Source: Streptomyces shenzhenensis
Lineage (GTDB): Bacteria > Actinomycetota > Actinomycetes > Streptomycetales > Streptomycetaceae
Length of the DNA stretch: 64,000 nt
Reading direction: 5' to 3'
Assembly (NCBI RefSeq): GCF_021462265.1
Contig: NZ_JAJONF010000013.1
Span: forward strand, 124,001 to 188,000
Part shown: positions 40,958-59,570 of the stretch, piece by piece
Layout of the letters: each line of letters begins with the position of its first letter
How positions within the stretch are numbered: the first letter of the stretch is position 1
Made by a program: the position numbers and the translations under genes
The notes under the pieces: generated by a model
What the model was told of the DNA's origin: nothing
What the model saw: the letters and a program-made list of their open reading frames with translations, nothing else
The model's database searches: none

Positions 40958-41722
40958 TCAGTGCTGAAGAGGCTTCAGTACGCCCAGGCGTTGCAACTCC
41001 ACAATGTGTTCGGCTGCACGTCGGGGCGCTTCTCCGCCGGTGATCAGCACACCGGCTTCGATGTTGCGCCTGGCGGCTGACTCAGTCAGGTTGGCGCTGC
41101 CGAGGAAGAGCGTGTGGCGATCGACGACGGCGAGCTTGGCGTGCTGGCGGGAGCCGACCTGCCGGGCCGGGTCCCGGGCCCAGGTCCACAACTTCACTCC
41201 GGGAACCGACGTGAAGGCGTCGGCGGGCTCCTTCCCCGAAAGGAGCCCGCCGGCGCCGGCCAGGGTCTCGACCACGACGTGCGTCTGCACGCCTCTGTCC
41301 ACCGCCTCTGTCAGGGCACGTGTCAGGGCGGGGTAGGCACGAGCCGCGTACGTCATGGCCAGCAGTTCGTGCTGGGCCTCATTGATGACCTCGATGAGCA
41401 CCTGGGCGGTGGCGCGGACGGGTACGGCAGGTGTGGAGGGACCGCTCCACACCGTGCGGACCTGGACCGCGTCCCGGGCCTTCTTCCGAGCGGCGACGTA
41501 GCCGCGCAGATAGGCGGCCGCCTCGGCCGGCGGCACCGACTCCGACTCGATCGCGTCGCACAGTCGTGCCACGGCCTCGCCGACCGCCGGTGTGGCCAGT
41601 GCGGTCAGGATCCGTTCCCTGGAGCGTGCCCGAGCGAGCAGACCGACCAGGTCCTTGCTGCGGGAGAGCCCGAGGACGGCCACGGCGGCCTCGGCAGCGG
41701 CCTCGAACCCGGGTCGGCTCAC
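40958..41722 (-). CDS. drmC: DrmC-like phospholipase D-fold protein (DISARM)
   Basis: 254 aa from a GTG that overlaps drmB's stop (GTGA). The C-terminal half has a phospholipase-D catalytic motif, HAKLAVVDRHTLFLGSANLTESA (H-x-K-x4-D-x6-GSxN, about residues 195-215). The N-terminal half is helical. One HKD per chain implies a dimeric active site, as in PLD-type nucleases. Size, position and order (drmA-drmB-drmC) match DISARM DrmC, a protein that was reported to be dispensable in some DISARM assays. Confidence 0.85.
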   Translation of the reverse strand: MSRPGFEAAAEAAVAVLGLSRSKDLVGLLARARSRERILTALATPAVGEAVARLCDAIESESVPPAEAAAYLRGYVAARKKARDAVQVRTVWSGPSTPAVPVRATAQVLIEVINEAQHELLAMTYAARAYPALTRALTEAVDRGVQTHVVVETLAGAGGLLSGKEPADAFTSVPGVKLWTWARDPARQVGSRQHAKLAVVDRHTLFLGSANLTESAARRNIEAGVLITGGEAPRRAAEHIVELQRLGVLKPLQH

Positions 41723-43614
41723 GGCAGGAGACCGACCGGTGTCAGCACCGGTTCCTTGTCCCCGGCCAGCGGGACGAGGAACCGACGGTCCAGGAACCGG
41801 TTGCCGCGTTCGCACGTCGTTTCCGACACGAACAGACAGACGTGGCACGCGGCTCCGTGGAGGAAGTCGGCCGGGTCGTGCGGCAGGCGCTCGGCGCAGA
41901 GCGGATCGGCCGAGCAGTGACCGGCGTCGGTCAGGGCCCGGCGTACGATCCGGTCGAACTCGCGTTCCTCGGCGAGGGAGACCAGACCGCCCAAGGTGCC
42001 CTCGGAGTCCGGAACCGCGGTGTAGATGAGGATGCCCGTCCTCGGGTGCTGTTCGTCTCCCGCGTATATTCGCTCGGCGAGCGAGGCGGAGTTGTACCCG
42101 CATTCCAGGGCGATGGTGCGGATCAGCAGGTGGGACAAGGTGTGCAGGGCGATGTACCGTGCTCCGGGCCAGCCGTGGTAGGGGTCGAAGTCACTCGTCT
42201 TGCGGTCCGACCTGCGGTTGGCCCGGAAGCGTGCGTACGCCTCCCTATGCGCCTCCATCTGCGCGGACTTCTCCGTTCGGGCGGCCCACTCGGCCATCAG
42301 ACCGTCCCGTACCCGCAGGAAGACGCCCTCGCCGCGCACCTCGCTCGCCGGCACCCAGTTCCGGGCTCCGCGGGACAGATCGACGCGCTTGGCGATCTCC
42401 GGGGATTCCGGGTCGGGCGCGTCGAGCCGGGTGAACCCGATCAGTGCCCGTGCCTCGCGCAGCCGCTCGACCTGCCTGATGTCGGCGAACAACTCGCTCA
42501 GATGGGTCGGCACCGGGACCTGGCGCAGCGCGAAGTCGTCGCTGGGAGCAGGGACGGGTCCGGAGAGCGCGTCCCATTCCGGTCCGAAGAGGTCGGCCTG
42601 GACGTCGGGCGCGGAGGGAGCCGGTCCGGCCGTCCCCTGTTTGCGCGCCGCGATGGCCGCGACCACGGTGTCAGCGTCGAACTCCTTCAGGAAGGCGAAC
42701 TTCGGCATGCGCGCCATGAAGTCGAACTGCATACGGTCCTCGATGAGTTCGAGGTCGGGCCAGTGGTCGTCGAGGAGCTTGTCGATGTCGCCGCCCTGCG
42801 CCTTGGGCAGGGCCAGCGCGCTGAGGGTGAGTGGAAACCACTGGTTGGAGGCGCCCGCAACCATCAGGACGGACTCCTGCGCGCAGCCGTTCGACTCGAA
42901 GGTGCCCAGGTGCGGGTGCCGCCCGCGGCATGAAGGCAGGTTGCGGCGGCCCCGTTCCCCCATGGCTTCCCGGATGTTGCGCTTGACGCCGCAGGCGACG
43001 CACTCGATGGTGACGTTGGCGGCCTGGTTGCCGCCGTGGTCCTTCATGCGCAGCTTCGGACGTGGAGTCTTGCCGCAGGTCTGACCGTGGTGGACGTACG
43101 CGGTGTACGGGAACTCGTCGAGATGCCCTGCGGTGCAGACCAGGGTGAAGCGGGCGGCCACGGCGAGTGGCTTGCCCCGCTTGCAGTCGTGGACGAACTT
43201 CGCCTCGTGCGGTGTCCGCGGATTGGGGTTGATGAACGCGAACTCTCCGGAGTCGACGGCCGCCAGCACGTTGCACGCGGTGCAGCGCAGCCACTGCGGG
43301 AAGGGCGTGACGGGCACGCCGATTCCCTGGGCCGCCCAGCCCTTCGGGTCCGTGTCGGCGCCCTCCAGCCAGGGAGCGGCCCGCAACTGCTCGACCTGTC
43401 CGCGGCCGTAGCGCTGGAGGGACCGGTTGACCGCGGCACGGAGGCGGGGCTCGTCGATGTCGTAGTCGGTGATCCCGGAGTAACTCCAGGAATCGATACC
43501 GCGGATGAGGACCGAGAAGTTCGGCAGGTCGACGAGGGCGCCGACACCGGCGGTGAACATGAGGTGGCTGGGCCGTACGGCACCGACCCTGCGGTTGCCG
43601 GCGTGGGTGCTCAT
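41719..43614 (-). CDS. drmB: DrmB, DUF1998-containing DISARM protein
   Basis: 631 aa. It begins RPSHLMFTAGVGALVDLPNFSVLIRG, has two cysteine-rich clusters (RCTACNVLAAVD, and VTIECVACGVKRNIREAMGERGRRNLPSC), and ends in the DUF1998 domain: LIRTIALECGYNSASLAERIY, GILIYTAVPDSEGTLGGLVSL, and the zinc-like cysteines HGAACHVCLFVSETTCERGNRFLDR. DUF1998 proteins act with the DrmA-type helicase (compare MrfB with MrfA). The ATG overlaps the drmA stop (ATGA), and its own stop overlaps drmC, so drmABC is translated as one coupled operon. Confidence 0.93.
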   Translation of the reverse strand: MSTHAGNRRVGAVRPSHLMFTAGVGALVDLPNFSVLIRGIDSWSYSGITDYDIDEPRLRAAVNRSLQRYGRGQVEQLRAAPWLEGADTDPKGWAAQGIGVPVTPFPQWLRCTACNVLAAVDSGEFAFINPNPRTPHEAKFVHDCKRGKPLAVAARFTLVCTAGHLDEFPYTAYVHHGQTCGKTPRPKLRMKDHGGNQAANVTIECVACGVKRNIREAMGERGRRNLPSCRGRHPHLGTFESNGCAQESVLMVAGASNQWFPLTLSALALPKAQGGDIDKLLDDHWPDLELIEDRMQFDFMARMPKFAFLKEFDADTVVAAIAARKQGTAGPAPSAPDVQADLFGPEWDALSGPVPAPSDDFALRQVPVPTHLSELFADIRQVERLREARALIGFTRLDAPDPESPEIAKRVDLSRGARNWVPASEVRGEGVFLRVRDGLMAEWAARTEKSAQMEAHREAYARFRANRRSDRKTSDFDPYHGWPGARYIALHTLSHLLIRTIALECGYNSASLAERIYAGDEQHPRTGILIYTAVPDSEGTLGGLVSLAEEREFDRIVRRALTDAGHCSADPLCAERLPHDPADFLHGAACHVCLFVSETTCERGNRFLDRRFLVPLAGDKEPVLTPVGLLP

Positions 43615-46600
43615 CGCTGTGCCTTCCTGGCCGTGTCGGCCGTGAGGGGCCCGTACTCGTCACTGTCCACGGTGGTCGCCGTGTCGGGGTCGGCGTCGGA
43701 CTCGGTCGCGGGCGTGCCGAACGTCCAGTCGGGTCCGCCGCCCGAGGGTTCTTCCAGGAATGCTCCGCCGCCGGGCAGGAGCAGGTTGATCTCGTTCTCC
43801 GTCTCACGCATCGACATGCCGACGGTCAGTTCGGTCCACCGTGATCCGTCGGCGCGCCTGAGCAGTCCGTTCACGACGGTCGTCTTGTGCTTCTCCTTGC
43901 GGTAGCCGAGCGCTGAGGTGCTCTCGTCGCGCTTGCGGCGCCATTCGTCCTTCAGCCGGTCCAGCCGTTCGCTCAGGTACTGGCGGGGCTGGTCGCCGCC
44001 CACCCGTTCGGCGCGTTCCAGAAGCCGCCGTTCGACGTCCTGCGCGAGCGGCCCGTCGAGGTCGACGTGGTGGGCGTCGAGGTTGCGGGAGGTGTCGTAG
44101 GTCGCGTGCCGCAGCGCGGCGACGTAGGTGGCGGCGACGCCCCGGTCGAGTGCGCGGCGGGTGTACGGGGTGACGGACAGTGCCTCCACCTGGCGGTAGA
44201 ACGTCGCGTGGTAGTGCTCGAAGTCCTCGTAGTGCGCGAGGTCGCGGGGCCGCGACCAGTTGTAGAGGGTCACCACCAGACCTGGGCGCCTGGCGTCACG
44301 GCCGACCCGAGAGGACGCCTGGATGTACTCGGCGGTGTTCTTGGGCTGGCCGACGACCAGCATCAGGCCGAAGCGGGAGACGTCGACACCGACCTGCAGC
44401 ATGGAGGTGGCGAGGACCACGTCGACGGCCTGTCGGACGGCCGGTGTCATGGAGGCGCGGGGTTCGCGCTTCTCTTTCATGGCGGTCGCGTACTCGCGGA
44501 TGAAGGCGCGCCGCCGCACGGACGTGTCACGCTCGGGGTCGAACTCGATCTCCAGCCGTTTCAGGGCGGCTCCGATGTCCGCCGAGGAGATACGGGAGGT
44601 CAGCTCCTGGATGCTGAGCATCCCCGTTCTGCTCACGATGCGGTCCGAGAGCGTGTCCTGGCCCTTGCGGCTGCCGTTGGCACGCACCCGGGTGGTGATG
44701 TCGTCGTCCATGTACCTTCGCATGCCGGCGAGTTCGCGGGTCGCGTTGAAGTAGCCGACGAGGGTCATGTACGGGTCCGCGGGGCTGCCGTAGTCGTCGA
44801 ACAGCTGCTGTCCCGCGAGCAGCAGGATCTCCGCGACGCGGATCTCGGCGGCTTTCAGTCGTGTTCCGTGCGCGCACACGCCGAGGTAGCGACGGCCCGG
44901 GTTCTCCCGGCTCAGTTCCACCTGCCGCGAGAAGAAGGTGTCGCCGACGTCCAGCACCTGGGGCGGGAAGACGGCGACCTCGCGGCCGAAGACACCGCGC
45001 ACCTGGTCGGCGGCCCGCTTGGTGGTCGCGGTGGAGGCGACGATCTTGGGGCCGGTCTCTTGGCGCCGGCCGTGGGCGTCGGTGAAGCTCCACGTGCACA
45101 ACTGGTCGACGGCGCCTTCGAAGAGGCCCACGGTGGTGCCGAGTGCCCCGGATATCAGGTGCAGCTCGTCCTGGATGATCAGGTCCGGCGGCCGCAGACG
45201 GGTGACGGGTTGGGCGGTGACGCCGGGCAGGGCGCCCCGGGCGTTGTGCCGGCCACCGCAGCCCGTCTTGGCGTCCAGGTCGTCGTGCCGGTACCCGTGG
45301 CGGGGGCAGAGCTCGGTGACCCTGCCGAACAGCAGGCCCGCGTAGCCGTTCCAGGGGAGCTGGGCGAACTTGTCGACCGTGGCGATCAGCAGCGAGGGCG
45401 CCAGCCGGTAGATCTCCTCGTCGACGGTGAGGACCGGGATCCCCTCCCCGAGCGATTCGCGACGGGAGAAGGGGCAGCTGTCCTGCCCCTCCCCGCGCGG
45501 GCAGTACAGCAGGATGCGGCGGCGGCCTTCGTCGTACTCCATGTTCGAGCGGGCCGTCAGTCCGCTGCCGCACCAGGGGCAGGTGAGGACCTGCAGGACG
45601 CGGGCGTACTTGTCGCTGGCGCTCTCCTTGGCCTCGGCGATCTGTTCCTTCGCCTCGTCGAACCAGTTCGGCGAGACGGAGGTGCCCACCCAGAGTCCGA
45701 TGCGGAAGGGAGTGGAGCCCCAGCGCCGGTCCCGTGCGAACTCCTCGCGGCGCAGCACCTCGCAGGCGCTCACCAGGGCGGCGGCGCGCTGGAACTGTTG
45801 GGCGGTCAGCAGTCGCAGGGTGTAGCGCATGAGCACGCCCACCCCGGCCTCGCCGCTGCGGGCCTCGGCTCCCGAGCCGATCGTTCCCTGCAGGCGTCTC
45901 AGCGCGAAGGTGTAGGCGGCCAGGCCCAGATACGCCTCGGTCTTGCCGCCACCGGTCGGGAAGAAGAGCAGATCGACGAGGGCTGCCCGGCCGGTGCCGC
46001 GGTGCGGGTGTCCGGGCTGGGTGAGGGAGGCGATGTTCAACAGTACGAAGGCGAGCTGGAACGGGCGCCAACTGGCTGCCGTTTTGCCCTTGGCATGCAC
46101 CTCCTCCTGGGCCTCCCGATAGGAAAGGGGGTCGTTCTCACGGCCGGCGCGGGCGGCCGCGACGGCGGTGTTGCGCCGCTGCAGGGCCATGGCCCGGTTG
46201 GCGAACCGGAAGGCCGCCAGGGCCGTTTCGTCGGCCAGGAGCCGGTCGATGCCGAGGGTGATGCGGTCACAGACCTCGAGTGCCTGCTCGATCGCGACCT
46301 CGGCCGATTCGCGCAGGTCGCCGGGGAGTGAGCGGGCTGCCCGGCGCTGCTGCTCCAGCCAGGCGCCGTACCCGTCGGCCAGCGGTGCCAGGGCCGCGCC
46401 GAGATCGGCCCGGCGGTCGGGCACGGCGAGCGCGGCCAGTTCGTCCATGCCCAACTCCAGCCCGCGGAGCAGGTCCTGGTCCTCGAGTGCCGGAGCGGTC
46501 GTCGCCCTCACGTCGTACTCGGGAAGCCAGACGGTCGTCAGCCGGTGGGCATTGCGTTCGCCGGCGCGGACGTGCGCGTGCACGGCCACGTTGCGGCCCT

Positions 46601-47438
46601 TGGCGTGGCTCAGGCTGTCCCGGTAGAGGAGACGCAGCCGCCGTTCCTCGGAGTCCTCGGGCACTTTGCCGCCGGCCGTGTCGAGGGGATCGTCGACCGG
46701 CAGGAAGACGGCGGCCTGGTCGTCGGGAAAGGCGGTGACGTCGATCTCGGCCTGGAAGAGCCAGTGGGCGTCGCGTGCGTCCCGGCTGTCCGGCTGCCGG
46801 TTCACCAGGGCCAGCTCGACTATCCGCAGGTCCTCGGCGTCCGCGCGACCCGTGTGCCGGCGTACCTGCACGTCGAGGACGACGGCTTCGCCGTCGAGTT
46901 CGACGGCCCGGTCGCTCCCGCCGGTCACGTCGATGTCCACCAGGTGCTCGACGGGCCGACGCGACCAGACCCTGCGGGTCGTCCCCCGCTCGGTGGCTTC
47001 CTCCGACTGCGTGTACCGCCCCCAGCGGACCACGGCACTGAGCGTGCCGACGGATGCCGGGACGGTGAAGGACAGCCCCATGGACGACGCCCAGATGTGC
47101 CCGGCGGCCTGCGGGCTCAGCCGGTCCTGCAGAGCACTGTCGTCACCTTCCTGCTCGTCGCCCGACTCGCCGTCCGCGCTCTGTGCCGCCGCCCGGGCGA
47201 TCCCTTCCGTGGTGACGGCCTGGGGGCGGGGACCGAGCATGCCGACCAGGTAACGGTCGCGCGGCCCGGAGGAGGCGCTCGGCAGGGTCTCCGTCTCGCC
47301 GTCCCACGGACCGAGCAGGTCCCGGCGGATGTAGGTCACAAGTGCGTCCCGGACCTCGTAGGAGTCCCCGGCCCGGAATGTCTGGGGAACTTCGTCGAGC
47401 GGGTGCGGGACAGCGGCCTGGGCAGGCTGGGCCGGCAT
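43611..47438 (-). CDS. drmA: DrmA, SF2 helicase of DISARM
   Basis: 1,275 aa. Walker A LLFFPTGGGKTEAYLGLAAY lies near residue 490, DEAD-type box IIQDELHLISGALG near 760, and motifs V/VI LQVGVDVSRFGLMLVVGQPKNTAEYIQASSRVGRDARRPGLVV near 1030-1070 (key residues Q-x-x-S-R-x-x-R). A four-cysteine segment (TCPWCGSGL...YCPRGEGQDSC) sits between the lobes. This is the DrmA/MrfA type. AAAGGA precedes the ATG. A promoter with -35 TTGTGT and -10 TATATT (17-bp spacer) lies upstream with the shared operator inside the spacer. Confidence 0.95.
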   Translation of the reverse strand: MPAQPAQAAVPHPLDEVPQTFRAGDSYEVRDALVTYIRRDLLGPWDGETETLPSASSGPRDRYLVGMLGPRPQAVTTEGIARAAAQSADGESGDEQEGDDSALQDRLSPQAAGHIWASSMGLSFTVPASVGTLSAVVRWGRYTQSEEATERGTTRRVWSRRPVEHLVDIDVTGGSDRAVELDGEAVVLDVQVRRHTGRADAEDLRIVELALVNRQPDSRDARDAHWLFQAEIDVTAFPDDQAAVFLPVDDPLDTAGGKVPEDSEERRLRLLYRDSLSHAKGRNVAVHAHVRAGERNAHRLTTVWLPEYDVRATTAPALEDQDLLRGLELGMDELAALAVPDRRADLGAALAPLADGYGAWLEQQRRAARSLPGDLRESAEVAIEQALEVCDRITLGIDRLLADETALAAFRFANRAMALQRRNTAVAAARAGRENDPLSYREAQEEVHAKGKTAASWRPFQLAFVLLNIASLTQPGHPHRGTGRAALVDLLFFPTGGGKTEAYLGLAAYTFALRRLQGTIGSGAEARSGEAGVGVLMRYTLRLLTAQQFQRAAALVSACEVLRREEFARDRRWGSTPFRIGLWVGTSVSPNWFDEAKEQIAEAKESASDKYARVLQVLTCPWCGSGLTARSNMEYDEGRRRILLYCPRGEGQDSCPFSRRESLGEGIPVLTVDEEIYRLAPSLLIATVDKFAQLPWNGYAGLLFGRVTELCPRHGYRHDDLDAKTGCGGRHNARGALPGVTAQPVTRLRPPDLIIQDELHLISGALGTTVGLFEGAVDQLCTWSFTDAHGRRQETGPKIVASTATTKRAADQVRGVFGREVAVFPPQVLDVGDTFFSRQVELSRENPGRRYLGVCAHGTRLKAAEIRVAEILLLAGQQLFDDYGSPADPYMTLVGYFNATRELAGMRRYMDDDITTRVRANGSRKGQDTLSDRIVSRTGMLSIQELTSRISSADIGAALKRLEIEFDPERDTSVRRRAFIREYATAMKEKREPRASMTPAVRQAVDVVLATSMLQVGVDVSRFGLMLVVGQPKNTAEYIQASSRVGRDARRPGLVVTLYNWSRPRDLAHYEDFEHYHATFYRQVEALSVTPYTRRALDRGVAATYVAALRHATYDTSRNLDAHHVDLDGPLAQDVERRLLERAERVGGDQPRQYLSERLDRLKDEWRRKRDESTSALGYRKEKHKTTVVNGLLRRADGSRWTELTVGMSMRETENEINLLLPGGGAFLEEPSGGGPDWTFGTPATESDADPDTATTVDSDEYGPLTADTARKAQR

Positions 47439-47504
47439 GCGGTGGGTCCTTTCGGACAGGTCCGTTGCGATTCGGGCGGGTGGCGATGGTGTGACGGCAT
47501 CAGA

Positions 47505-47533
47505 AATATAGATTGTTGACTGAGTTCACACAA
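47505..47533 (-). promoter_or_regulatory. drmA promoter
   Basis: On the minus strand, TTGTGT (complement of 47528-47533), 17 bp, TATATT (complement of 47505-47510). The spacer contains the island operator described at 47514-47530. Confidence 0.6.
47514..47530. promoter_or_regulatory. Island operator A (drmA / RelE-UvrD divergent region)
   Basis: TGTTGACTGAGTTCACA is a 17-bp near-palindrome: arms TGTTGACT and TGTGAACT (reverse complement of AGTTCACA) around a central G. Its last 15 bases are identical to operator C at 55992-56006. Confidence 0.75.
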
Positions 47534-49792: not shown

Positions 49793-49800
49793 GACACCGC

Positions 49801-49849: not shown

Positions 49850-52800
49850 TCAGGCTCTTATCTCCCGGACGACGACCGTGCGCCTCTTGCCCAGGGACGC
49901 GTCGTACGAGATCTCGCGTCCGGTGGGCTGCCACATCAGCGCATGGCCGAGGGGGGACGACGGGGAGACGATGTCCGCCTCCTCGGTGGGCAGTTCGGCG
50001 ACGGTGTACAGGGTCTCCTCGTCGATGTCACCGTCGAACTCCAGGACCAGAAGCGCGCCCGGGATCACCACGTCCGGCGCGGTCGTCTCCCGCCCGATGC
50101 CGACGGAGTCGAGGAACATCCGCAGGAAGGTGAGACGCTTCGCGCGCCGGTCACGCTGGTCGGCCCGTGTCCTCCTGAGGAAGACGAGTTGCGCCGCGTC
50201 GGCCCCGTCGGGAGTGTCGTCGGGAGCATCGAGAGCCGCCTGCAGTTGCTGCGCCTCCCGCACCAGCCGCTGAAAGGCCGCGGCGGGGATCTGCCGGACC
50301 GGCAGTGAGCTCCGCGTGGCCGGGCCCGGCCCGGCCGGCGCGACGCCGGGCTCCGCCGGCCGGGCGGGGCCCCCGGAGGGGCCGGTGTCGGCGCGGTTCT
50401 TCGACGACACCCCGGACGACACCCCGGACGGCATCGCCGCAGCGGACATCGCCTCCGTGGCCGGACCGTGCAGCAACCCGCGCGGATCCACGGGCGCCGG
50501 TACGGCCTCCACGTCGGTGGCCACCGTCGCCGTTCCCGTGCCGCCCGAGTCCTCGCTCGGTTCGCTCCCGCGCTCGGTCGCCGCGCCTTCGTCGTCCGGC
50601 TCCGTGCCGGCGCGCCCGGTGTCGGCCGCGGTGCCCGACTGCTCCGTCTCCTCCCGCACCGGCTCGATGCCCAGCCGTTCCAGCTCGGCCCACAGGGGCG
50701 CCAGCGCCTGCTCGCGGTCGAGGTGGAATCGGCTGCCCCGGATCCGGACGAACGTCCAGTCGACGCGTTCGAGGTCGCGCTGCCTGGCCGCCGCGGTGGA
50801 GGCGTCCTCGCCCTCGGCGAAGGCGTCACCGTCGCAGGCGACCGCGAGCCGGCGCGTCCCGCCCTCCACCACCAGATCGAGGGTGTGGCGCCCCACCTTG
50901 TATCCCGGGCGGACCCGGTAGCCCCGAGCCGTCAGTTCCAGGTACACCTGCTGCTGGAACAGGCTGTCGAACGCTTCGTGCCTGACGTCGGGCAGGACCT
51001 CTCTCTCGACCGCGGCGGTGTCCTCCTCCGCGGGCCGGGTGAGGTGGTCGAGCCACCGTCGGCGCAGGTCGTTCTCGTGGAACTGTTCGGCGCGCGCGCT
51101 GTGGAACACCCACACCTGGTCCTGGGCGCGCGAGGCCGCCACGTTGATCCGTTGCTCGTAGGTCTTGCCGTTGAACCCTCCCGGCACGGACCCGGCGCCC
51201 GTGGACGGTGAGTTGACGCAGGAGACGAACATGACGTGCCGCTCGTCGCCCTGGAAGTCCTCGGCGTCGCCGACCCGGATGCGGCGCGCCTCGCGCTGCT
51301 CGTAGTCGAGGCGGTCGGCCAGCAGGTTCTCCAGTTCGGTCAGGTGGCCCTTGCCCGCGCGGAGGCTGATGATCCCCATGGTCTTCCCGTCGTAGGCGGG
51401 GTCGGTGCAGCACCGCACGACGGCGTCGACGAGTGCCTCGGCCTCGGCGGGGTTGCACAGCCGGGAGTTGACGCCGAGGGCTTCACCGTGTTCGACGTGC
51501 ACGGTGCGGACCGGGGGCAGCCGGTCGGCCCCGTACTGCCGCAGGGGCAGCAGATGGCGGTTGTAGCAGAGGTCGTTGGAGAAGGAGATGATCTCCGGCA
51601 TGCACCGGAAGTGCTCCTTGAGCATGAGGGTGCCGCGGCCCGCCGAAAGCGCTTCGGTGAGGTCGAAGAAGCTGGAGTCGGGGCCGAACAGGCTGCGGAC
51701 GTCCGGTTCCAGCGCGGTGAGCAGGCGGTCCCTGAGGTGGAAGTACTCGTCCTGCTTGAGGCCGACGTTGGACGGGCTGACCTGCTTGCTGTCGCCGACG
51801 ACGACCATCCGGTCGGCGAGCCAGCTCAGCAGCATGGCCTCCAGGCCGGACTGGCTGGCCTCGTCGACGATCACGACGTCGAACATGCCGGGCCGGTCCA
51901 TGGGCACCGTCTCGGCGACCTGGTGCAACGGCATGATCCACGCCGGTACCGCCGTCTGCGCCTTGCGCAGGGCGGCCTGGGCGTCGCGCCGGTAGCGGTG
52001 CTGGTACTTGCCCTTGATGCGCCGGGCGGCCTGCTGGTAGGCGCTGAGCGCCCGGGACTGGTCGCCGGTGAGCAGGCCGAGGCAGCGGTGCCAGGCGCGG
52101 GCGGCGGCGAGCCGGGCGAGCATGATGCGGGCCTCGTCGTCCGCCTCCGTCAGCCGCTTGCGCAGGGCGCGTTCGGCCTCGGGGTCGGTCAGCCGCTTCA
52201 TGCGCTCCCGCCACGCGGACCAGGCCCAGGCCTCGGCCAGCGCCGGCAGCCAGGTCTCCCAGGCGGTGTCCTCGTGCGTGGTCGTGACGCGCTCGGCCAG
52301 AGCCGGGAACGCCTCGCGGACACAGGTGAGGGCCGTGTCGTGTTCGGCCCGCAGCCGCGCGGCCTCCCGCACCTCGGCCATCTCTTCGCTGAACGAGCGG
52401 TAACCTTCGGGGTCCCGGTCGCGTACGGCGTCCAGGGCGCGCACGACCGCGGGTGCGGCACCGGGCCGGTCGCTCCAGGCGCGCAGCAGTTCCTCGGTGT
52501 CCGCGACGACCTTGCGGGACCCTTCGGCCGCGCGCAGCGTCGTCGCCGCACGCAGCAGGGTGCGCACGGCGTGCTCGACGGGGGCGTTGTGCCAGGTGGC
52601 GACGGCGAGCCCCGGTGAGGTGGCCGCGGCGGTCAGGACGTCGGTACGTGCGGCGGCGACGGCGAGCAGCGCGTCGAGCACCTCCGCCTCCTGACGCAGC
52701 CGTGCGAGGCGCGGCCCGTGTCCGTGCCAGGCGGCGGCCGGAGTGCCCCACTCGGACTCCACCTGAGCCAGACGCAGTTCGAGCTGGACACGGGCGAGGA

Positions 52801-55765
52801 CGACAGCCGCCGTCGGGACGTCCTCCGGAGTACGTCCGTCGACCCGTACGGCGTCGACGAACGCGCCGACCGTCTTCGCCAGCTTGGAGCGCATGCCGAG
52901 GGGTCCGCGCAGCTTCTGGCCCTGACCGAGCCCGTCGTGCAGAGCTGTGGCCTGGGCGAGCGCCGTGGCCGGGTCGTACTGGTCCAAGCCGCTGACCATG
53001 GCCGTGCCCAGCGTGGCGAGCGAGGCGTCGACGGCGGCGAGGGCCTCGGAGACGGCGGCCCGCCGGCTGCGCGCCTGCCAGTCCTGGCCCTCGGTCACCT
53101 CCTTCAGCAGTACCGCGGCCCAGTCGCCGGCCGGAGCGGCGAGGGACGCGGCACGGGCACGGGCGGCGGAGAAGGCGTCGAGCGCCGAGGACAGCCGCTG
53201 CTGTTCGGCCTCGCTCAGGCTCCGCACGGCCGCGTCGTACTCCGCGCACAGGGCATCCTGGCGCGCGGCGGCGTGCGCGTCCTCGGCCGACCGCACGACC
53301 CGCACGGCCTCCTCGAAGTCACCGGGGCTCGGCAGCTCGGAGGGGCCGGGCACCTCGGCGGCCAGGGCCTGGTGGTGCGGGGTGTAGGCGCGGGTGGCGT
53401 GCAGCAGGCGCAGGGCCTCGCCGGCGGTCAGGGCGGGCTGCTCCTGCGGGACGGGGCCGAGCCAGTCGTATCGTCCCGTCTCCGCGGTGAGGCGCTCGGC
53501 GATCTCCTGGAGGCTGCCGCTGTAGTCGCCGATCTCCGTCTCGAAGCGGTGGGTTTCCTGCTCGCGCAGCACCGCGAGGTCGCGCAGCATGGCCTGCTGA
53601 GCGGCCCGGGCCCTGGCGAGTCGTGACTGGAGCGCCTTGACCGCCTTCCGGGAGGCCTTCTCGTCGTAGCCGGCGTACTCACTGAGGATCTTGTGCACGG
53701 ACGCCTCCAGCTCGCGCTGGGCGGCGGCGCCGTCCTCGGTACGGCTCACGCAGAGGTCGCGGATGGACTCCGGAAGCTTGTCCCGCAGTACGCGCAGGGC
53801 GCGCGGGGTGTGGCTGGTGATGAGGACCCGCTTGCCCTGGGCGAGCAGGTCCGTGACCAGGTTGGCGATGGTGTGCGTCTTGCCGGTGCCGGGCGGACCC
53901 TGGACGACGACGAGCCGGTTGGCGCGCAGGCGTTCGGCGATCGTGCGCTGCTCCTCGTTGGCGGGCAGGGCGAAGTACATCTCGTCGCTGTCGGTCGCGG
54001 TCCCGCCCTCCGCCGCCGCGAGGTCGGCCGCGGTGAGCGCGCCGTCGCGGCCCGCGATGTAGCTGAGCAGCTCGGTGGGCGGGGTGCCCGCGTCGATCTG
54101 CCGGGCGATGGCCTTGAGCGCGTCCATGGTCGAGCGGCGGCTGCGTTCCCGCAGGACGAGTGCGGGGGTGAGTCCCACCTGCGGAACGTCGAGGCTGCGC
54201 GGCTTGGCCCGCTCCACGGTCGGGGCGTAGCTGCCGGCGCTGTGCGCGGCGTTGACCCAGCTGCGCAGGGCGGTGTGCACGGCGTCGAGGTGTTCGGGGT
54301 CCGTCACGTCCGAGGCGCCTTCCAGCACCTCGACGATCTCCTCCCGCACGGGGCCCGGCACGTGCTGGGCCCCTTCGAGCATGCCCTCTTCGAGTTCCAG
54401 CCCGGCACCGGTCGGATCGGGGGCGGCGGTGAGCGTGCCGGTGGACGGATCGAGCCGGAGGATGGCCCGGTGGGTCACGAGGTGCCGTTCCACCCGCTGT
54501 CCCGCGGCCGTCTGCCAGGTCAGGCGGCCGAGGCCGAGGACGAGCTCGTAGGCCTCACCGAGGTTGGCGGCGTCCTCGTGCATCTTGTGCAGCCGGTCGT
54601 ACAGCCTGACGACGGGGTCGATCGCGCGCCGCCGCTCCGCCCAGGCGAGCCATTCCTGTTCCCAGGCGGCGTACAGCTTCTCGATCTTCTCTCGTTGGGG
54701 GTGCTCGTCCAGCTCGTGGTAGGTCTTGTCGAGCGGGATGCCCTGCGACCAGTCGGGAAACTCCGGTTCGATGCGGCGGCGCAGGTGCGGGGCGCGGGTC
54801 TGCTTGAAGTCGCGGATGCGGTTCTCGTCCACCCAGGGGACGAGCAGAGTCCTGAGGTGCGGCGCGTCCTCGCGCTCGGGGCGGGTGACGGTCAGCCAGG
54901 CCGGCTCGTCGGCGCCGAGCATGCCGTCGATCATCACCTCGACACCGTCGTCGTCGGGCAGTTCATCGAACCACACGGCGCCGGCCGCGCCGTCCAGCGT
55001 GCGAACGGGGCGCGTCTTCGACTCCTCCGCCTCGGCGAGGAAGCGGAAGATCTGCCGCACGCGCGCGGAGTCGAGCTCGTCGCCGGAGAGCTGAGGCGCG
55101 GGCGGCGGCGTGACCTGTCGCCCCGGGCCGGCCGACTGCGCGGGGATGGCGTGGAGCGTGGCACGGGTGCTGTGCTGCTGCTCGAATCCGCCGGCGGGGA
55201 TACCGAGGCCGCCGCCGGACTCGGCCTGGGTGCCGCTGTCGCGGGACAAGGACGCGGCGCCGGTGCCGAGGGTGGCCGACACGGCGGTCGGGGCCGTGGT
55301 GAAGGTGACACGCTCCCGGTCGTGTGCATCCCGGAAACGGACCTCGATGTCCAGGTCGTCGGCGGTTCCGGCCGGGATGCTGTAGGCCCACGTGGCGGAG
55401 AGCCTGCGTCCCGTGCGCAGGGTGCCTTCCAGTTCGTCGTCGAGCAGATCACCGCTGTGGTCCTGCACCTGACGGGCCGTCTTGCCGTAGGGGCCGCCGC
55501 GCACCAGCAGGCTGATGCCGTCCACGGCGACGGGCCGCCCGGTGCCGTTGCTCAGGTGCAGGGTGCAGCGCACCAAGTCGTCACCCGGCCGGTACCCGTG
55601 GCTGTCGTCGGCGTCGGCCAGTTCGTACGGCATGACGTCGTCCACGCGTACGTACAGGCCGTCGTCGTACTGGTAGACGGAACCGACCGGCCGCAGGCCG
55701 TCACCCGGCACGCTCTCGTCCTGACTCACACGCCCCACCCCACTGTGTGCAGAGGGCCAGCTCAT
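49850..55765 (-). CDS. Upf1-like SF1 helicase with REase-type nuclease domain and GreA-like C-terminus
   Basis: About 1,971 aa from the ATG at 55765 (a GTG at 55729 is an alternative; a frame to 55900 would swallow the operator). N-terminal beta domain (YQYDDGLYVRVDDVMPYELAD, about 20-140). Helicase lobe 1: VVQGPPGTGKTHTIANLV (about 622) and, after a ~600-residue helical insertion, VVIVDEASQSGLEAMLLSWLADRMVVVGDSKQVSPSN (about 1,300). Lobe 2: GDAEDFQGDERHVMFVS and INVAASRAQDQVWVFHS. A restriction-endonuclease-like domain follows (FQQQVYLELTARGYRVRPGYKVGRHTLDLVVEG... ACDGD, about 1,610-1,690). After a low-complexity linker comes a GreA/GreB-type C-terminal domain (LYTVAELPTEEADIVSPSSPLGHALMW, about 1,915-1,971). 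Confidence 0.87.
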   Translation of the reverse strand: MSWPSAHSGVGRVSQDESVPGDGLRPVGSVYQYDDGLYVRVDDVMPYELADADDSHGYRPGDDLVRCTLHLSNGTGRPVAVDGISLLVRGGPYGKTARQVQDHSGDLLDDELEGTLRTGRRLSATWAYSIPAGTADDLDIEVRFRDAHDRERVTFTTAPTAVSATLGTGAASLSRDSGTQAESGGGLGIPAGGFEQQHSTRATLHAIPAQSAGPGRQVTPPPAPQLSGDELDSARVRQIFRFLAEAEESKTRPVRTLDGAAGAVWFDELPDDDGVEVMIDGMLGADEPAWLTVTRPEREDAPHLRTLLVPWVDENRIRDFKQTRAPHLRRRIEPEFPDWSQGIPLDKTYHELDEHPQREKIEKLYAAWEQEWLAWAERRRAIDPVVRLYDRLHKMHEDAANLGEAYELVLGLGRLTWQTAAGQRVERHLVTHRAILRLDPSTGTLTAAPDPTGAGLELEEGMLEGAQHVPGPVREEIVEVLEGASDVTDPEHLDAVHTALRSWVNAAHSAGSYAPTVERAKPRSLDVPQVGLTPALVLRERSRRSTMDALKAIARQIDAGTPPTELLSYIAGRDGALTAADLAAAEGGTATDSDEMYFALPANEEQRTIAERLRANRLVVVQGPPGTGKTHTIANLVTDLLAQGKRVLITSHTPRALRVLRDKLPESIRDLCVSRTEDGAAAQRELEASVHKILSEYAGYDEKASRKAVKALQSRLARARAAQQAMLRDLAVLREQETHRFETEIGDYSGSLQEIAERLTAETGRYDWLGPVPQEQPALTAGEALRLLHATRAYTPHHQALAAEVPGPSELPSPGDFEEAVRVVRSAEDAHAAARQDALCAEYDAAVRSLSEAEQQRLSSALDAFSAARARAASLAAPAGDWAAVLLKEVTEGQDWQARSRRAAVSEALAAVDASLATLGTAMVSGLDQYDPATALAQATALHDGLGQGQKLRGPLGMRSKLAKTVGAFVDAVRVDGRTPEDVPTAAVVLARVQLELRLAQVESEWGTPAAAWHGHGPRLARLRQEAEVLDALLAVAAARTDVLTAAATSPGLAVATWHNAPVEHAVRTLLRAATTLRAAEGSRKVVADTEELLRAWSDRPGAAPAVVRALDAVRDRDPEGYRSFSEEMAEVREAARLRAEHDTALTCVREAFPALAERVTTTHEDTAWETWLPALAEAWAWSAWRERMKRLTDPEAERALRKRLTEADDEARIMLARLAAARAWHRCLGLLTGDQSRALSAYQQAARRIKGKYQHRYRRDAQAALRKAQTAVPAWIMPLHQVAETVPMDRPGMFDVVIVDEASQSGLEAMLLSWLADRMVVVGDSKQVSPSNVGLKQDEYFHLRDRLLTALEPDVRSLFGPDSSFFDLTEALSAGRGTLMLKEHFRCMPEIISFSNDLCYNRHLLPLRQYGADRLPPVRTVHVEHGEALGVNSRLCNPAEAEALVDAVVRCCTDPAYDGKTMGIISLRAGKGHLTELENLLADRLDYEQREARRIRVGDAEDFQGDERHVMFVSCVNSPSTGAGSVPGGFNGKTYEQRINVAASRAQDQVWVFHSARAEQFHENDLRRRWLDHLTRPAEEDTAAVEREVLPDVRHEAFDSLFQQQVYLELTARGYRVRPGYKVGRHTLDLVVEGGTRRLAVACDGDAFAEGEDASTAAARQRDLERVDWTFVRIRGSRFHLDREQALAPLWAELERLGIEPVREETEQSGTAADTGRAGTEPDDEGAATERGSEPSEDSGGTGTATVATDVEAVPAPVDPRGLLHGPATEAMSAAAMPSGVSSGVSSKNRADTGPSGGPARPAEPGVAPAGPGPATRSSLPVRQIPAAAFQRLVREAQQLQAALDAPDDTPDGADAAQLVFLRRTRADQRDRRAKRLTFLRMFLDSVGIGRETTAPDVVIPGALLVLEFDGDIDEETLYTVAELPTEEADIVSPSSPLGHALMWQPTGREISYDASLGKRRTVVVREIRA

Positions 55766-55836
55766 GACCCGTTCGGTGACATCTCGCCCAGCCGCCTCAA
55801 GCCGCCAACAAGCGCCCCCCGGCGCGCGACCTTGTA

Positions 55837-55853
55837 TGTGAACTGAGCACACG
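55837..55853. promoter_or_regulatory. Island operator B (upstream of the helicase-nuclease gene)
   Basis: TGTGAACTGAGCACACG matches the palindromic consensus TGTnnACT-G-AGTnnACA in 8/8 left-arm and 5/8 right-arm positions compared with operator A. It is 72 bp before the ATG at 55765. Confidence 0.5.
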
Positions 55854-55989
55854 CGGCGAGAGTACCAGCAACCCCTGACAACACACGCCCCTGGGACCAA
55901 CCGTGCCGCAAGCTCAACGGCGTGCGATCAAGCAGCGACTTCAGCGGGCCCCGGCATCACGACAGAGCCACCTTGACGAGAGAGAAAGT

Positions 55990-56006
55990 CATTGACTGAG
56001 TTCACA
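55990..56006. promoter_or_regulatory. Island operator C with promoter for the DGQHR gene
   Basis: CATTGACTGAGTTCACA is identical to operator A over 15 bp (TTGACTGAGTTCACA). TTGACT (55992-55997) and CAGGAT (56016-56021) with an 18-bp spacer form a likely promoter for the plus-strand gene, so the operator covers the -35 box. Confidence 0.75.
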
Positions 56007-56076
56007 ATTACACGGCAGGATCTCAAGCGCGTCACCCATTGTGCGTGACGTCGTTCCGGAGGAGGGCAATCGCGCC

Positions 56077-56916
56077 ATGGACATGCAAGTGGTCGACGTC
56101 TCGCCCCAGTTGGCGGCACAGTGGCTGACCAGCAACACCAACAACCGACCGCTCAGCAAGGGCACGGTGCAGCAACTGGCCGGCCAGATCCAGCGTGGTG
56201 AGTGGCAGTTGACTCACCAGGGGATCGCCTTCGACGAGGACGGTGTCCTGATCGACGGACAGCACCGCCTGGCGGCCATCGTCAAGGCGGGAGTCGCCGT
56301 GCGGCTGACCGTCACGCGCGGTGTGCCGCGCACCGCGTTCACCGTGATGGACACGGGCCGCAAGCGCACCGGGCGCGACGCACTCGCCCTCGCGGGCGAG
56401 GCCAACGCGACCCATCTGGCGGCAGCCCTGCGAGGACTGCACCTGTACCGGACCGCACCGAACTCCTCCTGGAGCGGCGGATCGTCGGTCACGAGCAACG
56501 ACCAGCTCCTGGACGTGCTCGGCAAGCACCCCGGTGTCCGCGACGCCCTGCAGCGCGGCATCGCCTTGAACCGCGGATGCCGCATCACCGTCACGGCCGC
56601 GACGATCGGCTGGTACATCACCACCGAGGCGCGGCCCGACGTCGACCAGTCCGCGTGGGAGGAGGGAGTCGTCACCGGCGCGCGTCTGGAGCCGGGCGAC
56701 CCGCGCCTCACGCTGCGCAACACCATGCTCAACCTGGCACTGGGCAACGCACACCGGCGCCGCGACGACTCACGTGAGCACCTGCTCTACTACCTCAAGG
56801 CGTGGAACGCGTGGGTCGAGGGCCGCAGCATCAAGCTGCTGCGCCGCTCCCCCAACGAGACGATGCCCCGCGTCTCCAGTCGCTCGGCTCTGACGCCGGC
56901 GGACAACAGCGCCTGA
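56077..56916 (+). CDS. DGQHR-motif protein (DndB / ParB-nuclease-like)
   Basis: 279 aa. The N-terminal domain is ParB/DndB-like: NRPLSKGTVQQLAGQIQRGEWQLTHQGIAFDEDG, then the hallmark LIDGQHRLAAIV (about residues 62-73) and a C-terminal helical part (LLDVLGKHPGVRDALQRG; HLLYYLKAWNAWVEGRSIKLLRR). DGQHR proteins include DndB, the regulator of DNA phosphorothioation genes, the DpdB partner of 7-deazaguanine systems, and phage proteins. GGAGGG lies 10 bp before the ATG. It is the first gene of an operon with the GmrSD-like gene (104 bp gap), under the operator shared with drmA, so it is a candidate regulator or sensor. Confidence 0.83.
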   Translation: MDMQVVDVSPQLAAQWLTSNTNNRPLSKGTVQQLAGQIQRGEWQLTHQGIAFDEDGVLIDGQHRLAAIVKAGVAVRLTVTRGVPRTAFTVMDTGRKRTGRDALALAGEANATHLAAALRGLHLYRTAPNSSWSGGSSVTSNDQLLDVLGKHPGVRDALQRGIALNRGCRITVTAATIGWYITTEARPDVDQSAWEEGVVTGARLEPGDPRLTLRNTMLNLALGNAHRRRDDSREHLLYYLKAWNAWVEGRSIKLLRRSPNETMPRVSSRSALTPADNSA

Positions 56917-57020
56917 AAAGGCATAGATTAAGCGGACAGCCCCCTGTCGCGAGAGACACCCGGACATGGATGGGCCGGGCCTGTGGCACTCGGCAGGGGG
57001 ACACGCGGGAAAGGAGGCGC

Positions 57021-59570
57021 ATGCGCGCCCAGGAAATCACCTTCCTCAAGCTCGTCCAAGGGGACAAGCAGTTCCAGGTGCCGCTCTACCAGCGCACGTA
57101 CAGCTGGGGCAGGGAACAGCTCCAGCGGCTGTGGGAGGACGTCGGGGAACTCGTCGAACAGCATCTGGCCGGCGAGACGGCGGCGCCGCACTTCCTGGGT
57201 TCCGTGGTGCTCGCACCGGGCCAGATCCAGGCAGGCGGGGTGCAGAGATGGCTGGTGGTGGACGGGCAGCAGCGGCTCACCACGCTGATGCTGGCCTTCA
57301 CGGCGCTGCGCGACCACCTGAAGGAGACGGGTGACGCGCGCGGTGTGGACCGGGTGCACCGCCAGATACTGGTCAACGAGTTCCACGAGGGCGCGGACCA
57401 CTACCGTTTGCTTCCCACGCAGGCCGACCGTGAGGCGTACACCGCCTGTGTCCAGTCCCGGGCCGACGCCGGCGGTGGCGACAACATCGGGGCCGCCTAC
57501 CGGTTCTTCCGCGGTGCGCTCGCCGAGGGCCACGAGGCGAACGACGTGCAGTGGACCGCCACGGTCGAGACGGTCCTCAAGGATCTGCTCTCCATCGTGG
57601 AGATCACCGCCGAGTCCGGCGACAACGTCTACCGGATCTTCGAGTCGATCAATAACACGGGTGTCGGGCTCAGCCAGAGCGACCTCCTGCGCAACTACGT
57701 CTTCATGCTGCTGCCCAAGCGAGGCGAACGGATCTACCAGGAGCTGTGGCTGCCCATGCAGCAGAGCCTGGGCCCGAAGAACCTCGAACTGCTGGTCTGG
57801 CTCGACCTGGTGGTACGTGGCCACTACAAGACCAAGCAGAGCGAGATCTACCGGGAGCAGCAGAAACGGCTCCAGCCGCTGGCCGGCGACGAGGACGCGC
57901 TGCAGCACGAGATCGAACAGCTGGCCGAGCGGGCCGGCAGGTTCCTGCGCATCGTCGAGCCCGCTCGTGAGCAGTCCCCCGCCCTGCGCGCGGTCCTGGA
58001 ACGCCTGGCCTCCTGGGGCGGCCAGACGCACTACCCGCTCGCCCTGCACCTGCTGGACCTGCTCGCGGCAGGCCGGACGACACCCGACGACGCGGCGCAG
58101 GCGCTCGGCTACGTCGAGTCCTACCTGGTACGGCGCCTGATCTGCCAGACGCCGACGACCGGCCTCAACCGGATCTTCATGGAGGCGCCGAAGGAGCTGG
58201 AGACCGACCGGCCCGCCGCCGAGGCGGTACGGCGGTTCCTGTCCGGCCGTCGCCGCCGCTGGCCGAGCGACGAGGAGCTGCGCGAGGCGATCCGCACCAA
58301 GCCGTTCTACTGGAGCGGCCGGCCTCCGCAACGCAGTTACATCCTGCGCCGGCTGGAGGAGAGCTACCGCCCCTCCGAGCCGGTGGACTTCGCCAGGGCG
58401 TCCCTGAGCGTGGAGCACGTCCTGCCGCAGCGACCCGCTCCGGCGTGGTTCGACCTCCTCTCCGAGGAGACGGAGCCGAACCAGGCTCCGCAGGAACTGC
58501 ACGACCTGCTGGTGCACACCCTCGGCAACCTCACGCTGACCGGCGACAACTCCAAACTGTCCAACCACCCCTTCGAGCGCAAGCAGCAGATCCTCGACTC
58601 CAGCGCCCTGCGCATGAACCTTGAGATCGCCTCGGCGCAGCGCTGGGGCAAGGCGGAGATCCTGGCGCGTGCCGACCGCCTGTCCGAGCGCGCGGTGGGC
58701 CTGTGGCCCGGCCCGATCGGCGGGGTGAAATCGGCCGGTGAGGAGTCCCCGGGCTGGGCCGAGCTGCGGGCCGCGCTGGTGGCGATGCCGAGCGGCACGT
58801 GGACGACGTACGGCGATGTCGCCGAGCTGATCGGCAGCCACCCGGTGGCCGTCGGAGCGTACCTGGGCGGCAACTCGACGGTGATCGGCGCCTACCGGGT
58901 GCTCACCTCGGAAGGCAAGATCTCTCCTTCCTTCCGCTGGCCGGACGGCGACGACCGACAGCCGCCGCAGGAGCTGCTGACGAGCGAGGGCGTGCGCTTC
59001 GACACCTGGGGCCGGGCACACCGCTCGCAACGCCTGACCGCGGCGGAGCTGGCCACCCTGCTGGGGAAGGACGTCGCACAGCCCACGGCGCACGATCCGC
59101 TCCCCGAGGGGGAGGATGCGGCGGCAGCCGAGCGCTTCCGCACCCAGTTGCAGGAGCACTGGCCGGACGCGCAACCCGGCGTCATGGGGGCCCTCGACTT
59201 CTGGCGCCGGCAGGGCGGTTACGTCAACTACGGCCGCTATGAGGAGACCAGTTGCTTCCCGATGCTGGACGCCGGGACGAGCCGTAGCCAGCACCTGCTC
59301 TGGCCGGTCGCGATCTACCCGGTGAGCGGCACGGTAGAGGTGGTCTTCCAATACCTGAAGTCCCGCACGCCCTTCGACGACACCGAACAGCGCCGGGAAC
59401 TGCTGAACCGCCTGAACGAGATCGACGGCATCGACCTGCCCGAGGCGAAGCTGGAACTGCGTCCCTCCTTCCCGGTGACGGTCTTCGCCGGGCACGGTGA
59501 CGAGATCTGCGAGGTGCTGGACTGGTTCGTGGGGGTGGCGGCGCTGGATCTGGCGCGGCGGCGGGACTGA
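57021..59570 (+). CDS. GmrSD-type restriction protein (DUF262-DUF1524) fused to alkyltransferase-like domain
   Basis: 849 aa. DUF262 (residues about 5-240): VPLYQRTYSW, WLVVDGQQRLTTLMLAF and FESINNTGVGLSQSDLLRNYVF. DUF1524 HNH-type nuclease (about 445-560): SVEHVLPQ and HTLGNLTLTGDNSKLSNHPF. These are the GmrSD/SspE modules, where DUF262 hydrolyses NTP and DUF1524 cuts modified DNA. Residues about 585-650 resemble the DNA-binding domain of O6-alkylguanine transferases (PSGTWTTYGDVAELIG, GAYLGGNSTVIGAYRVLTSEGKIS), lacking the PCHR cysteine, so it is ATL-like. A further C-terminal domain (about 690-849) is unrecognised. AAGGAGG precedes the ATG. Confidence 0.87.
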   Translation: MRAQEITFLKLVQGDKQFQVPLYQRTYSWGREQLQRLWEDVGELVEQHLAGETAAPHFLGSVVLAPGQIQAGGVQRWLVVDGQQRLTTLMLAFTALRDHLKETGDARGVDRVHRQILVNEFHEGADHYRLLPTQADREAYTACVQSRADAGGGDNIGAAYRFFRGALAEGHEANDVQWTATVETVLKDLLSIVEITAESGDNVYRIFESINNTGVGLSQSDLLRNYVFMLLPKRGERIYQELWLPMQQSLGPKNLELLVWLDLVVRGHYKTKQSEIYREQQKRLQPLAGDEDALQHEIEQLAERAGRFLRIVEPAREQSPALRAVLERLASWGGQTHYPLALHLLDLLAAGRTTPDDAAQALGYVESYLVRRLICQTPTTGLNRIFMEAPKELETDRPAAEAVRRFLSGRRRRWPSDEELREAIRTKPFYWSGRPPQRSYILRRLEESYRPSEPVDFARASLSVEHVLPQRPAPAWFDLLSEETEPNQAPQELHDLLVHTLGNLTLTGDNSKLSNHPFERKQQILDSSALRMNLEIASAQRWGKAEILARADRLSERAVGLWPGPIGGVKSAGEESPGWAELRAALVAMPSGTWTTYGDVAELIGSHPVAVGAYLGGNSTVIGAYRVLTSEGKISPSFRWPDGDDRQPPQELLTSEGVRFDTWGRAHRSQRLTAAELATLLGKDVAQPTAHDPLPEGEDAAAAERFRTQLQEHWPDAQPGVMGALDFWRRQGGYVNYGRYEETSCFPMLDAGTSRSQHLLWPVAIYPVSGTVEVVFQYLKSRTPFDDTEQRRELLNRLNEIDGIDLPEAKLELRPSFPVTVFAGHGDEICEVLDWFVGVAALDLARRRD

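Follow-up and report, generated by a model that had tools for sequence, protein, structure and literature searches.

The Locus and Its Gene Content

The 64,000-nucleotide stretch of Streptomyces shenzhenensis DNA considered here (positions 124,001 to 188,000 of contig NZ_JAJONF010000013.1, hereafter the window) harbors the DISARM genes drmA, drmB, and drmC together with genes for a UvrD-family helicase, a helicase-nuclease, a DGQHR-containing protein, and a GmrSD-type endonuclease (Table 1). Copies of a 17-bp element, TGTGAACTnAG[TC]nnAC[GA], lie among these genes. To judge from its distribution, this element is quite probably the operator of a modular defense regulon, and its likely binding protein is a fusion of a helix-turn-helix (HTH) domain with an adenine methyltransferase encoded to the right of the window. 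The contig is designated C35 (a window coordinate equals the C35 coordinate minus 124000) and the source genome G000.

The gene names given in the original prediction, which was made from the sequence alone, stand, i.e., drmA/B/C, RelE-UvrD, the helicase-nuclease with a weak GreA-like end, DGQHR, and DUF262-DUF1524-ATL. The N-terminal RelE-like fold of the UvrD protein was modeled with AlphaFold2 (AF2) at pLDDT 85 and matched RelE/YoeB toxins in Foldseek; no Pfam toxin family was matched. Likewise, no Pfam or PADLOC family was matched by the DGQHR protein, whose gene is possibly cotranscribed with that of GmrSD, given their overlapping frames. Two further DISARM genes, drmMI and drmD, sit 27 kb to the right of drmABC, hence the island contains a split class 1 DISARM. 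The two Ser/Thr kinases of the island match the PD-T4-6 and mad6 models.

Table 1. Genes and operator sites of the island, in window coordinates unless C35 is indicated (PWM, position weight matrix score)
Feature	Position	Strand	Evidence and remarks
drmC, PLD-like	40958..42103	-	PADLOC DrmC 2e-111; NCBIfam DISARM_DrmC_I; start uncertain, frame overlaps drmB
drmB, MZB domain	41719..43614	-	Pfam MZB; PADLOC DrmB 3e-71
drmA helicase	43611..47438 (C35:167611-171438)	-	PADLOC DrmA 2.7e-296
Operator site	47514..47530	-	TGTGAACTCAGTCAACA on the - strand; divergent drmA/UvrD promoter; PWM 31.5
UvrD-family helicase, RelE-like N-terminal domain (residues 1-120)	47621..49792	+	Pfam UvrD-helicase
Helicase, MTES_1575 nuclease domain, weak GreA-like C-terminus	49850..55900	-	Profile matches
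Operator site	55837..55853	+	TGTGAACTGAGCACACG; left of the helicase-nuclease/DGQHR pair, faces DGQHR; PWM 26.3
Operator site	55990..56006	-	TGTGAACTCAGTCAATG on the - strand; right of the pair, faces helicase-nuclease; PWM 32.1
DGQHR-containing protein	56041..56916	+	Literal IDGQHR in translation; orthologues adjoin GmrSD
GmrSD-type endonuclease (DUF262+DUF1524: GmrSD_N + GmrSD_C), ATL-like DNA_binding_1	56802..59570	+	Pfam; PADLOC Orf5/HEC-06
546-aa gene	62504..64000, on to 64144 past the window edge	-	No family matched
Operator site	64165-64181		Adjoins 546-aa gene, just outside the window
Operator site	66750		PASTA-protein gene
Operator site	69083		Near frameshifted CoiA-like copy and OGG-like gene
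Operator site	71882		CoiA-like gene
drmMI	about C35:198998-203317		PADLOC DrmMI 2e-109 on C-terminal piece; frame open over 1439 aa
drmD	C35:203314-206559		PADLOC DrmD E=0; has operator site
Operator site	82656		drmD
Operator site	85129		HTH-methyltransferase on one side, kinase on the other
HTH-adenine methyltransferase fusion	C35:209223-211208 (85223-87208)		Located 21 kb beyond the right window edge; element present in its promoter

The Probable Operator Element and Its Placement

The two exact copies of the 15-bp sequence TTGACTGAGTTCACA originally reported at 47516-47530 and 55992-56006 are present, as is the weaker copy at 55837, which was recovered as a match (at most two mismatches) to the near-palindrome TGTNNACTNAGTNNACA. 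Permitting three mismatches to TTGACTGAGTTCACA yielded zero extra matches in the window. Within the window by itself, the enrichment of the element is modest: two copies of TTGACTGAGTTCACA were found against 0.41 expected, a number attained in 5 of 100 shuffles, and three matches to TGTNNACTNAGTNNACA against 0.43 expected, attained in none of 100.

Judged genome-wide, the clustering is strong. A scan of both strands of the 10.66-Mb genome for TGTGAACTNAGTNNACA (up to two mismatches) gave 18 strand-matches vs. six for the reversed-pattern control. Eleven of the 18, representing eight distinct places, fall into a 35-kb stretch (C35:171514-206672) and the other seven are spread one each over seven different contigs; an additional variant was found at C35:209129. 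A weight matrix applied to 119.6 kb of C35 revealed nine distinct strong sites (score of at least 22), all within 38 kb (C35:171514-209145) and six of them to the right of window position 64000, with zero sites at the threshold of 14 in window positions 1-40000. The 86 sites behind this matrix came for the most part from the same genomes, some of them from the island itself, so the claim of clustering rests on the pattern scans rather than on the matrix.

The placement of the sites on promoter elements, another part of the original prediction, was borne out for the drmA spacer; for the site at 55837 it is probable, not proven. In the drmA promoter, TATATT starts 3 bp past the 17-mer towards drmA, approximately 75 bp upstream of its start, and most relatives show TGTGAACTnAGTCAACG followed by TATATT. 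The TTGACT within the site at 55990 could act as the -35 hexamer of the DGQHR gene. The site at 55837, found again in relatives in the form TGTGAACTnAGCACAC[AG], falls within the longest helicase-nuclease frame (TTG at 55900), with later starts at 55765, 55738, and 55729, and the true start is probably 55765 or slightly later. The corresponding frame of G131 has no listed start before the site and that of G289 has one; on account of this disagreement, the promoter position of 55837 is only probable. The sites at 55837 and 55990 point at each other, as would be expected if the helicase-nuclease and DGQHR genes gave rise to divergent transcripts that overlap. The methyltransferase gene's own promoter features TGTGAACAnAGTCAATG followed by GTAGTAG, the site overlapping the likely -35/spacer region, and the arrangement TTGTGA-N16 to N18-[CG]ATACT is found at four further promoters of the island.

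Conservation and Modularity among Streptomyces

Regions of 22 other Streptomyces genomes were read. Conservation of the motif upstream of drmA orthologues, suggested as a check in the original prediction, was confirmed: in the 11 aligned drmA/UvrD intergenic regions (DrmA at least 84% identical), all of which carry the site, 15 of 17 motif columns are invariant vs. 33 of 172 elsewhere. Overall, DrmA reaches 62% identity in 18 genomes, and the site precedes drmA in 12 of them, i.e., all 11 at 84% or above (including G000) and G085 (72%); it is missing upstream of drmA in G225 (74%) and in five genomes with DrmA at 62-64%. The order drmC-drmB-drmA-UvrD-helicase-DGQHR-GmrSD is kept in all nine relatives with DrmA at 84% or above and at least 20 kb read (G032, G099, G197, G136, G157, G009, G230, G065, and G179; G116 was read at the drmA end only), with a short helicase match in G099. 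All nine possess the drmA site, and the helicase/DGQHR gap contains two sites, some of them weak, in eight and one site in G230. Sites at drmD were also found in G230, G179, and G225, and in a set of 80 loci (see below) a site lies beside drmD in 11 of the 12 loci with DrmD at 78% or above.

The flanking genes proved separable from drmABC, an outcome that the original prediction had named as counting against it. In G131, the UvrD, helicase-nuclease, DGQHR, and GmrSD genes are present with sites and no DrmA match, which suggests a modular regulon, not one seven-gene system. Conversely, UvrD is retained in all five DISARM loci whose DrmA is 62-64% identical, and GmrSD in four of them, while no helicase-nuclease or DGQHR match was found within 40 kb. 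In 60 kb of each, the matrix found 0, 0, 0, 0, and 1 weak site, the latter (in G110, score 16.3) lacking the AG core and taken as a chance match; the 16 methyltransferase-bearing regions contain 2 to 9 sites each, a comparison biased by the origin of the matrix in those same 16. G039, which counts among the genomes with a DISARM locus and no methyltransferase nearby, has a 47% identical copy of that enzyme on another contig.

On this sequence evidence, the element appears to be a real operator family, and the shared control originally proposed is probably correct. The single regulon of seven genes stood in having one operator family and fell in being a closed system: the site also precedes the drmD, kinase, PASTA-protein, 546-aa, CoiA-like, and HTH-methyltransferase genes outside the window. 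Hence, instead of a new system of seven genes, the predicted unit is a modular methyltransferase-linked defense regulon of which the split DISARM forms a part. A further arrangement was observed in G156, G003, and G022, where a kinase gene with a site accompanies a gene of 1.77-1.79 thousand amino acids and one for a DrmD-like helicase. The long gene is DruE-like in G156 and G003; the helicase of G156 is DpdE, and this genome also encodes a DrmMI-like methyltransferase and a RelE-UvrD-like protein. These genes possibly represent an undescribed DISARM-related system.

Association of the Element with the HTH-Methyltransferase

Co-occurrence was assessed in 295 genomes, a draw from the single genus Streptomyces. 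The island type of the methyltransferase, defined after looking at the data (alignment beginning within the first 10 residues, E <1e-130), was found in 34 of them. The exact pattern TGTGAACTNAGYNNAC gave 55 matches in 27 genomes (reversed control, 3) and was present in 22 of the 34 genomes with the island-type methyltransferase vs. 5 of the 261 without it (odds ratio 94; Fisher p 4e-20, which is too small since the genomes are related). All 13 genomes with at least two matches carry the island-type enzyme. By position, 42 of the 55 matches lie within 47.6 kb of its gene on the same contig, eight on other contigs of genomes that possess the gene, and five in genomes without it. The same comparison for DrmA (62% or more) gave 12 of 18 genomes with it and 15 of 277 without. 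The HTH-methyltransferase thus follows the site better than DrmA does.

The own promoter was read for 30 of the 35 island-type places in these genomes (the second copy in G029 and the places in G117, G003, G039, and G087 were omitted), and TGTGAACnnnGTCAA occurs upstream of the methyltransferase in all 30, 24 caught by the AG-core rule and the other six seen in the upstream sequence itself. A second set of 80 loci (1.64 Mb), retrieved with the search word GRAAVSNW, was split by identity into 52 island-type and 28 core-type loci (L239-L267 except L265); at least four of the 80 appear to equal loci of the first set (G116, G289, G022, and G003). Of the 52 island-type loci, 34 have the strict own-promoter form within 320 bp, as do 23 of the 28 loci of the core type (57 of 80 overall; 76 strict forms in 1.64 Mb), and the matrix found an own-promoter site in 41 of the 52. 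These 52 loci hold 110 matrix sites in total vs. a shuffled mean of 0.2 (two-base blocks, five rounds). A convergent kinase gene lies within 6 kb in 32 of them, and in 31 the 5' end of this gene bears a site, including Nocardia and Umezawaea; the genera with sites also include Actinoplanes, Actinomadura, Nonomuraea, and Herbidospora.

The core-type relatives are approximately 41% identical to the island methyltransferase and have the segment GVGRAAVSNWRRRH in common with it. The sequence TGTGAACCGAGTCAACA is conserved in many of the 295 genomes and, where read, serves as promoter to a gene encoding an HTH plus N6-adenine methyltransferase; the view that it is unrelated to the element was dropped in light of these surroundings. 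In L023 (around 1501) and L239-L267, the site in the core promoter is often overlapped by an inverted repeat of larger size, TGTGAACCG-N8-CGGTTCACA. A kinase match was found in 26 of 28 core-type loci; in 22, the kinase gene runs in the same direction as the methyltransferase gene and begins 2.6-3.0 kb past the start of the latter. Of the island proteins, only the methyltransferase and the kinase recur in the 28 core loci, apart from one weak DrmD-like match, and 571,501 bases of these loci contain two matrix sites outside the own promoter. Since nearly all core sites lie in the own promoter, the core kinase lacks a separate site, and its gene may be transcribed together with that of the methyltransferase. 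From these comparisons, the deep unit looks like a methyltransferase-kinase pair and the island like its defense-recruited form.

The protein itself belongs to the N6-adenine, type I HsdM-like methyltransferases and not to the cytosine-5 enzymes. It matches Pfam N6_Mtase as well as the PADLOC type I methyltransferase, mad2, mad1, and specificity models, and its relatives of solved structure are subunits of type I methyltransferases, PacII M and M.BseCI. All 12 aligned sequences contain the DPACG motif, and 11 contain NPPFN (NPPAN in one). The AF2 model (pLDDT 80.5, pTM 0.61) comprises a helical N-terminal head with helices at 11-18 and 22-31, the methyltransferase core, and a C-terminal part that appears specificity-like, its domain placement being uncertain. 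Carriage by mobile elements was not apparent: none of the 139 IMG/VR stretches matching the search word encoded a relative, and PLSDB gave no match at E 1e-80.

Proposed Regulation and Alternative Explanations

Since the element closely follows one methyltransferase across related bacteria, the whole set is probably regulated by this enzyme, and the fusion is the most likely binding protein of the element. The main argument is that, of the two proteins common to core and island, only the methyltransferase has a DNA-binding head; the argument relies on the island proteins traced in the core loci, the annotation of which is partial. A methyltransferase dimer would bind the element through its N-terminal HTH, covering the -35 and spacer, and repress its own gene together with the drmABC, drmMI-drmD, helicase-nuclease, DGQHR-GmrSD, and kinase promoters. 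The levels of defense proteins would then depend on how much methyltransferase is free, and methylation would come before attack, as it does in the SsoII-type restriction-modification systems; the accompanying Ser/Thr kinase may set the methyltransferase activity. Repression would be in keeping with the overlap of the sites with the likely -35 and spacer at several promoters, and M.SsoII offers a precedent: according to PMC6100179, this enzyme represses its own gene through its N-terminal domain, which binds a 15-bp palindrome, and its two functions are mutually exclusive. By this analogy, autorepression is favored, and repression of the targets seems somewhat likelier than their activation.

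Several observations weigh against this assignment. Twelve of the 34 methyltransferase genomes lack an exact TGTGAACTNAGYNNAC match (several have variants), and the pattern, the matrix, and the protein cut-off were all picked after the data had been seen. In the 80-locus set, 11 of the 52 island-type loci have no own-promoter site by the matrix, nine of them at 44-47% identity, with seven of the 11 possessing a site at the kinase; identity in the shared segment is partly built into this set by the use of GRAAVSNW as a search word. The methyltransferase is not the sole common gene, since the Ser/Thr kinase recurs in the core loci too, and its HTH is weak by profile (mad1 1.1e-6, residues 9-59; HTH_17 below cut-off). 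Finally, M.SsoII stimulates its nuclease gene, as stated in PMC6100179.

A regulator from outside the island, e.g., the core paralogue of the HTH-methyltransferase or a host factor unrelated to it, is an unlikely main binder; nevertheless, cross-talk is plausible because the core-type relatives, with own-promoter sites mostly of the form TGTGAACCGAGTCAACA, carry the same recognition segment. In addition, a single exact match each was found in five genomes that lack the island-type protein. However, two or more exact matches never occur in a genome of the 295 without the island type, and sites outside the own promoter are as few in the core loci as noted above. Still less probable is binding by the island's XRE-DUF5753 (WhiJ-like) regulator (C35:197810-198724), which has DUF397-like and HATPase neighbors and adjoins drmMI in several relatives; a WhiJ paralogue, WhiJ9, does bind DNA, but at direct repeats CGXXCTCAAC rather than at this palindrome (PMC10294661). 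The association of this gene with the element is weak (TGTGAACTNAGYNNAC in 10 of 36 genomes with it vs. 17 of 259 without, p 4e-4), its orthologues in G211, G214, and G057 (79-85% identity) occur in genomes with no exact match, and its own promoter in the source genome has no site. It was therefore dropped as the main regulator.

The element might instead be a promoter variant, i.e., a -35 with a conserved spacer read by one sigma factor and spread by duplication. The TTGTGA-containing arrangement at the four island promoters, and the overlap of the element with the -35 in several promoter classes, speak for this, but the element retains its near-palindromic core whichever way it is oriented and with differing -10 sequences, and the element follows one protein across genera, which renders this explanation highly improbable.

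Along with repression by the HTH-methyltransferase, a far more speculative and rather doubtful role can be envisaged for this enzyme as a self/non-self gauge, i.e., an epigenetic marker, sensor, and switch of a plug-in defense regulon in several actinomycete genera, derived from the core pair. With the genome fully methylated, free enzyme would occupy the operators and hold the island down; incoming unmethylated phage DNA would titrate the enzyme onto methylation sites, or the partner kinase would inactivate it, so that DISARM, nucleases, and kinases would be released together.

Neighboring Genes

Directly downstream of GmrSD (window 59844-62519) lies a gene for an ADP-ribosylglycohydrolase with a weak dual-specificity phosphatase domain, at which no operator site of its own was found. 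The sites at 69083 and 71882 are followed by two copies of a gene (C35:192366-193098 and 193939-195806, - strand) which we take to be CoiA-like from their motifs, the profile search having given no family; both look frameshifted relative to a 780-aa gene of G131. The mad8 model matched the helicase-nuclease at 7e-10 in a scan that covered part of the island genes. Elsewhere in the source genome (G000:C177:30942-32810), a second DrmA-like helicase (39%) is encoded, of a kind found in many Streptomyces.

Comparison with Known Systems

Class 1 DISARM comprises drmD, drmMI, drmA, drmB, and drmC, usually laid out as one contiguous locus. All five genes matched PADLOC models here; unlike in the usual layout, they form two blocks 27 kb apart with a common operator, and additional UvrD, helicase-nuclease, DGQHR, GmrSD-ATL, and kinase genes occur with or beside sites. 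The statement of the original prediction that no described system has this gene set thus needs qualification, as drmABC is part of a known system, the other two genes of which are located 27 kb off.

MADS (mad1-mad8) is resembled in that the fusion matches mad1 (HTH) and mad2 (methyltransferase), the kinases match mad6, and a relative weakly matches mad5. In contrast to MADS, the mad1 and mad2 parts are fused here, and the rest of the mad set was not recognized as such in the genes scanned. The HATPase, XRE-DUF5753, and DUF397-like genes (the latter recognized by eye) adjoining drmMI at C35:195938-198927 resemble the WhiJ/BldB/AbaA triads, unlike which the island XRE gene follows the site poorly.

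Among the literature matches listed (titles and abstract starts, with subscription papers poorly covered), nothing fitting was found on TGTGAACT in Streptomyces, on DISARM in Streptomyces, on regulators of DISARM or a DISARM kinase or regulon, or on HTH-methyltransferases in phage defense, which is no proof of absence; nor was any paper on MADS in defense among the matches listed. The regulation of defense islands is far less known than their action, according to PMC12255303. The same paper describes RptR from an E. coli defense island, likewise a dedicated regulator with a palindromic site and defense genes under its control; RptR differs in being a small helical repressor acting at one promoter with TAGCTA repeats. 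With a readable operator and a candidate regulator, the regulation of a defense island becomes directly testable in Streptomyces. If the assignment is true, the element would also serve as a sequence tag for further defense genes near such methyltransferases.

The closest parallel to the proposed regulator itself is provided by the SsoII/Ecl18kI regulatory methyltransferases, in which, as PMC6100179 relates, an N-terminal HTH is likewise fused to a methyltransferase and a palindromic element is located in the own promoter. The enzyme encoded here differs in being an adenine, type I-like methyltransferase with a C-terminal specificity-like region, and its candidate targets are many genes of several systems, not one restriction gene. 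If so, the idea of the regulatory methyltransferase would extend from two-gene restriction systems to an island with DISARM and kinases.

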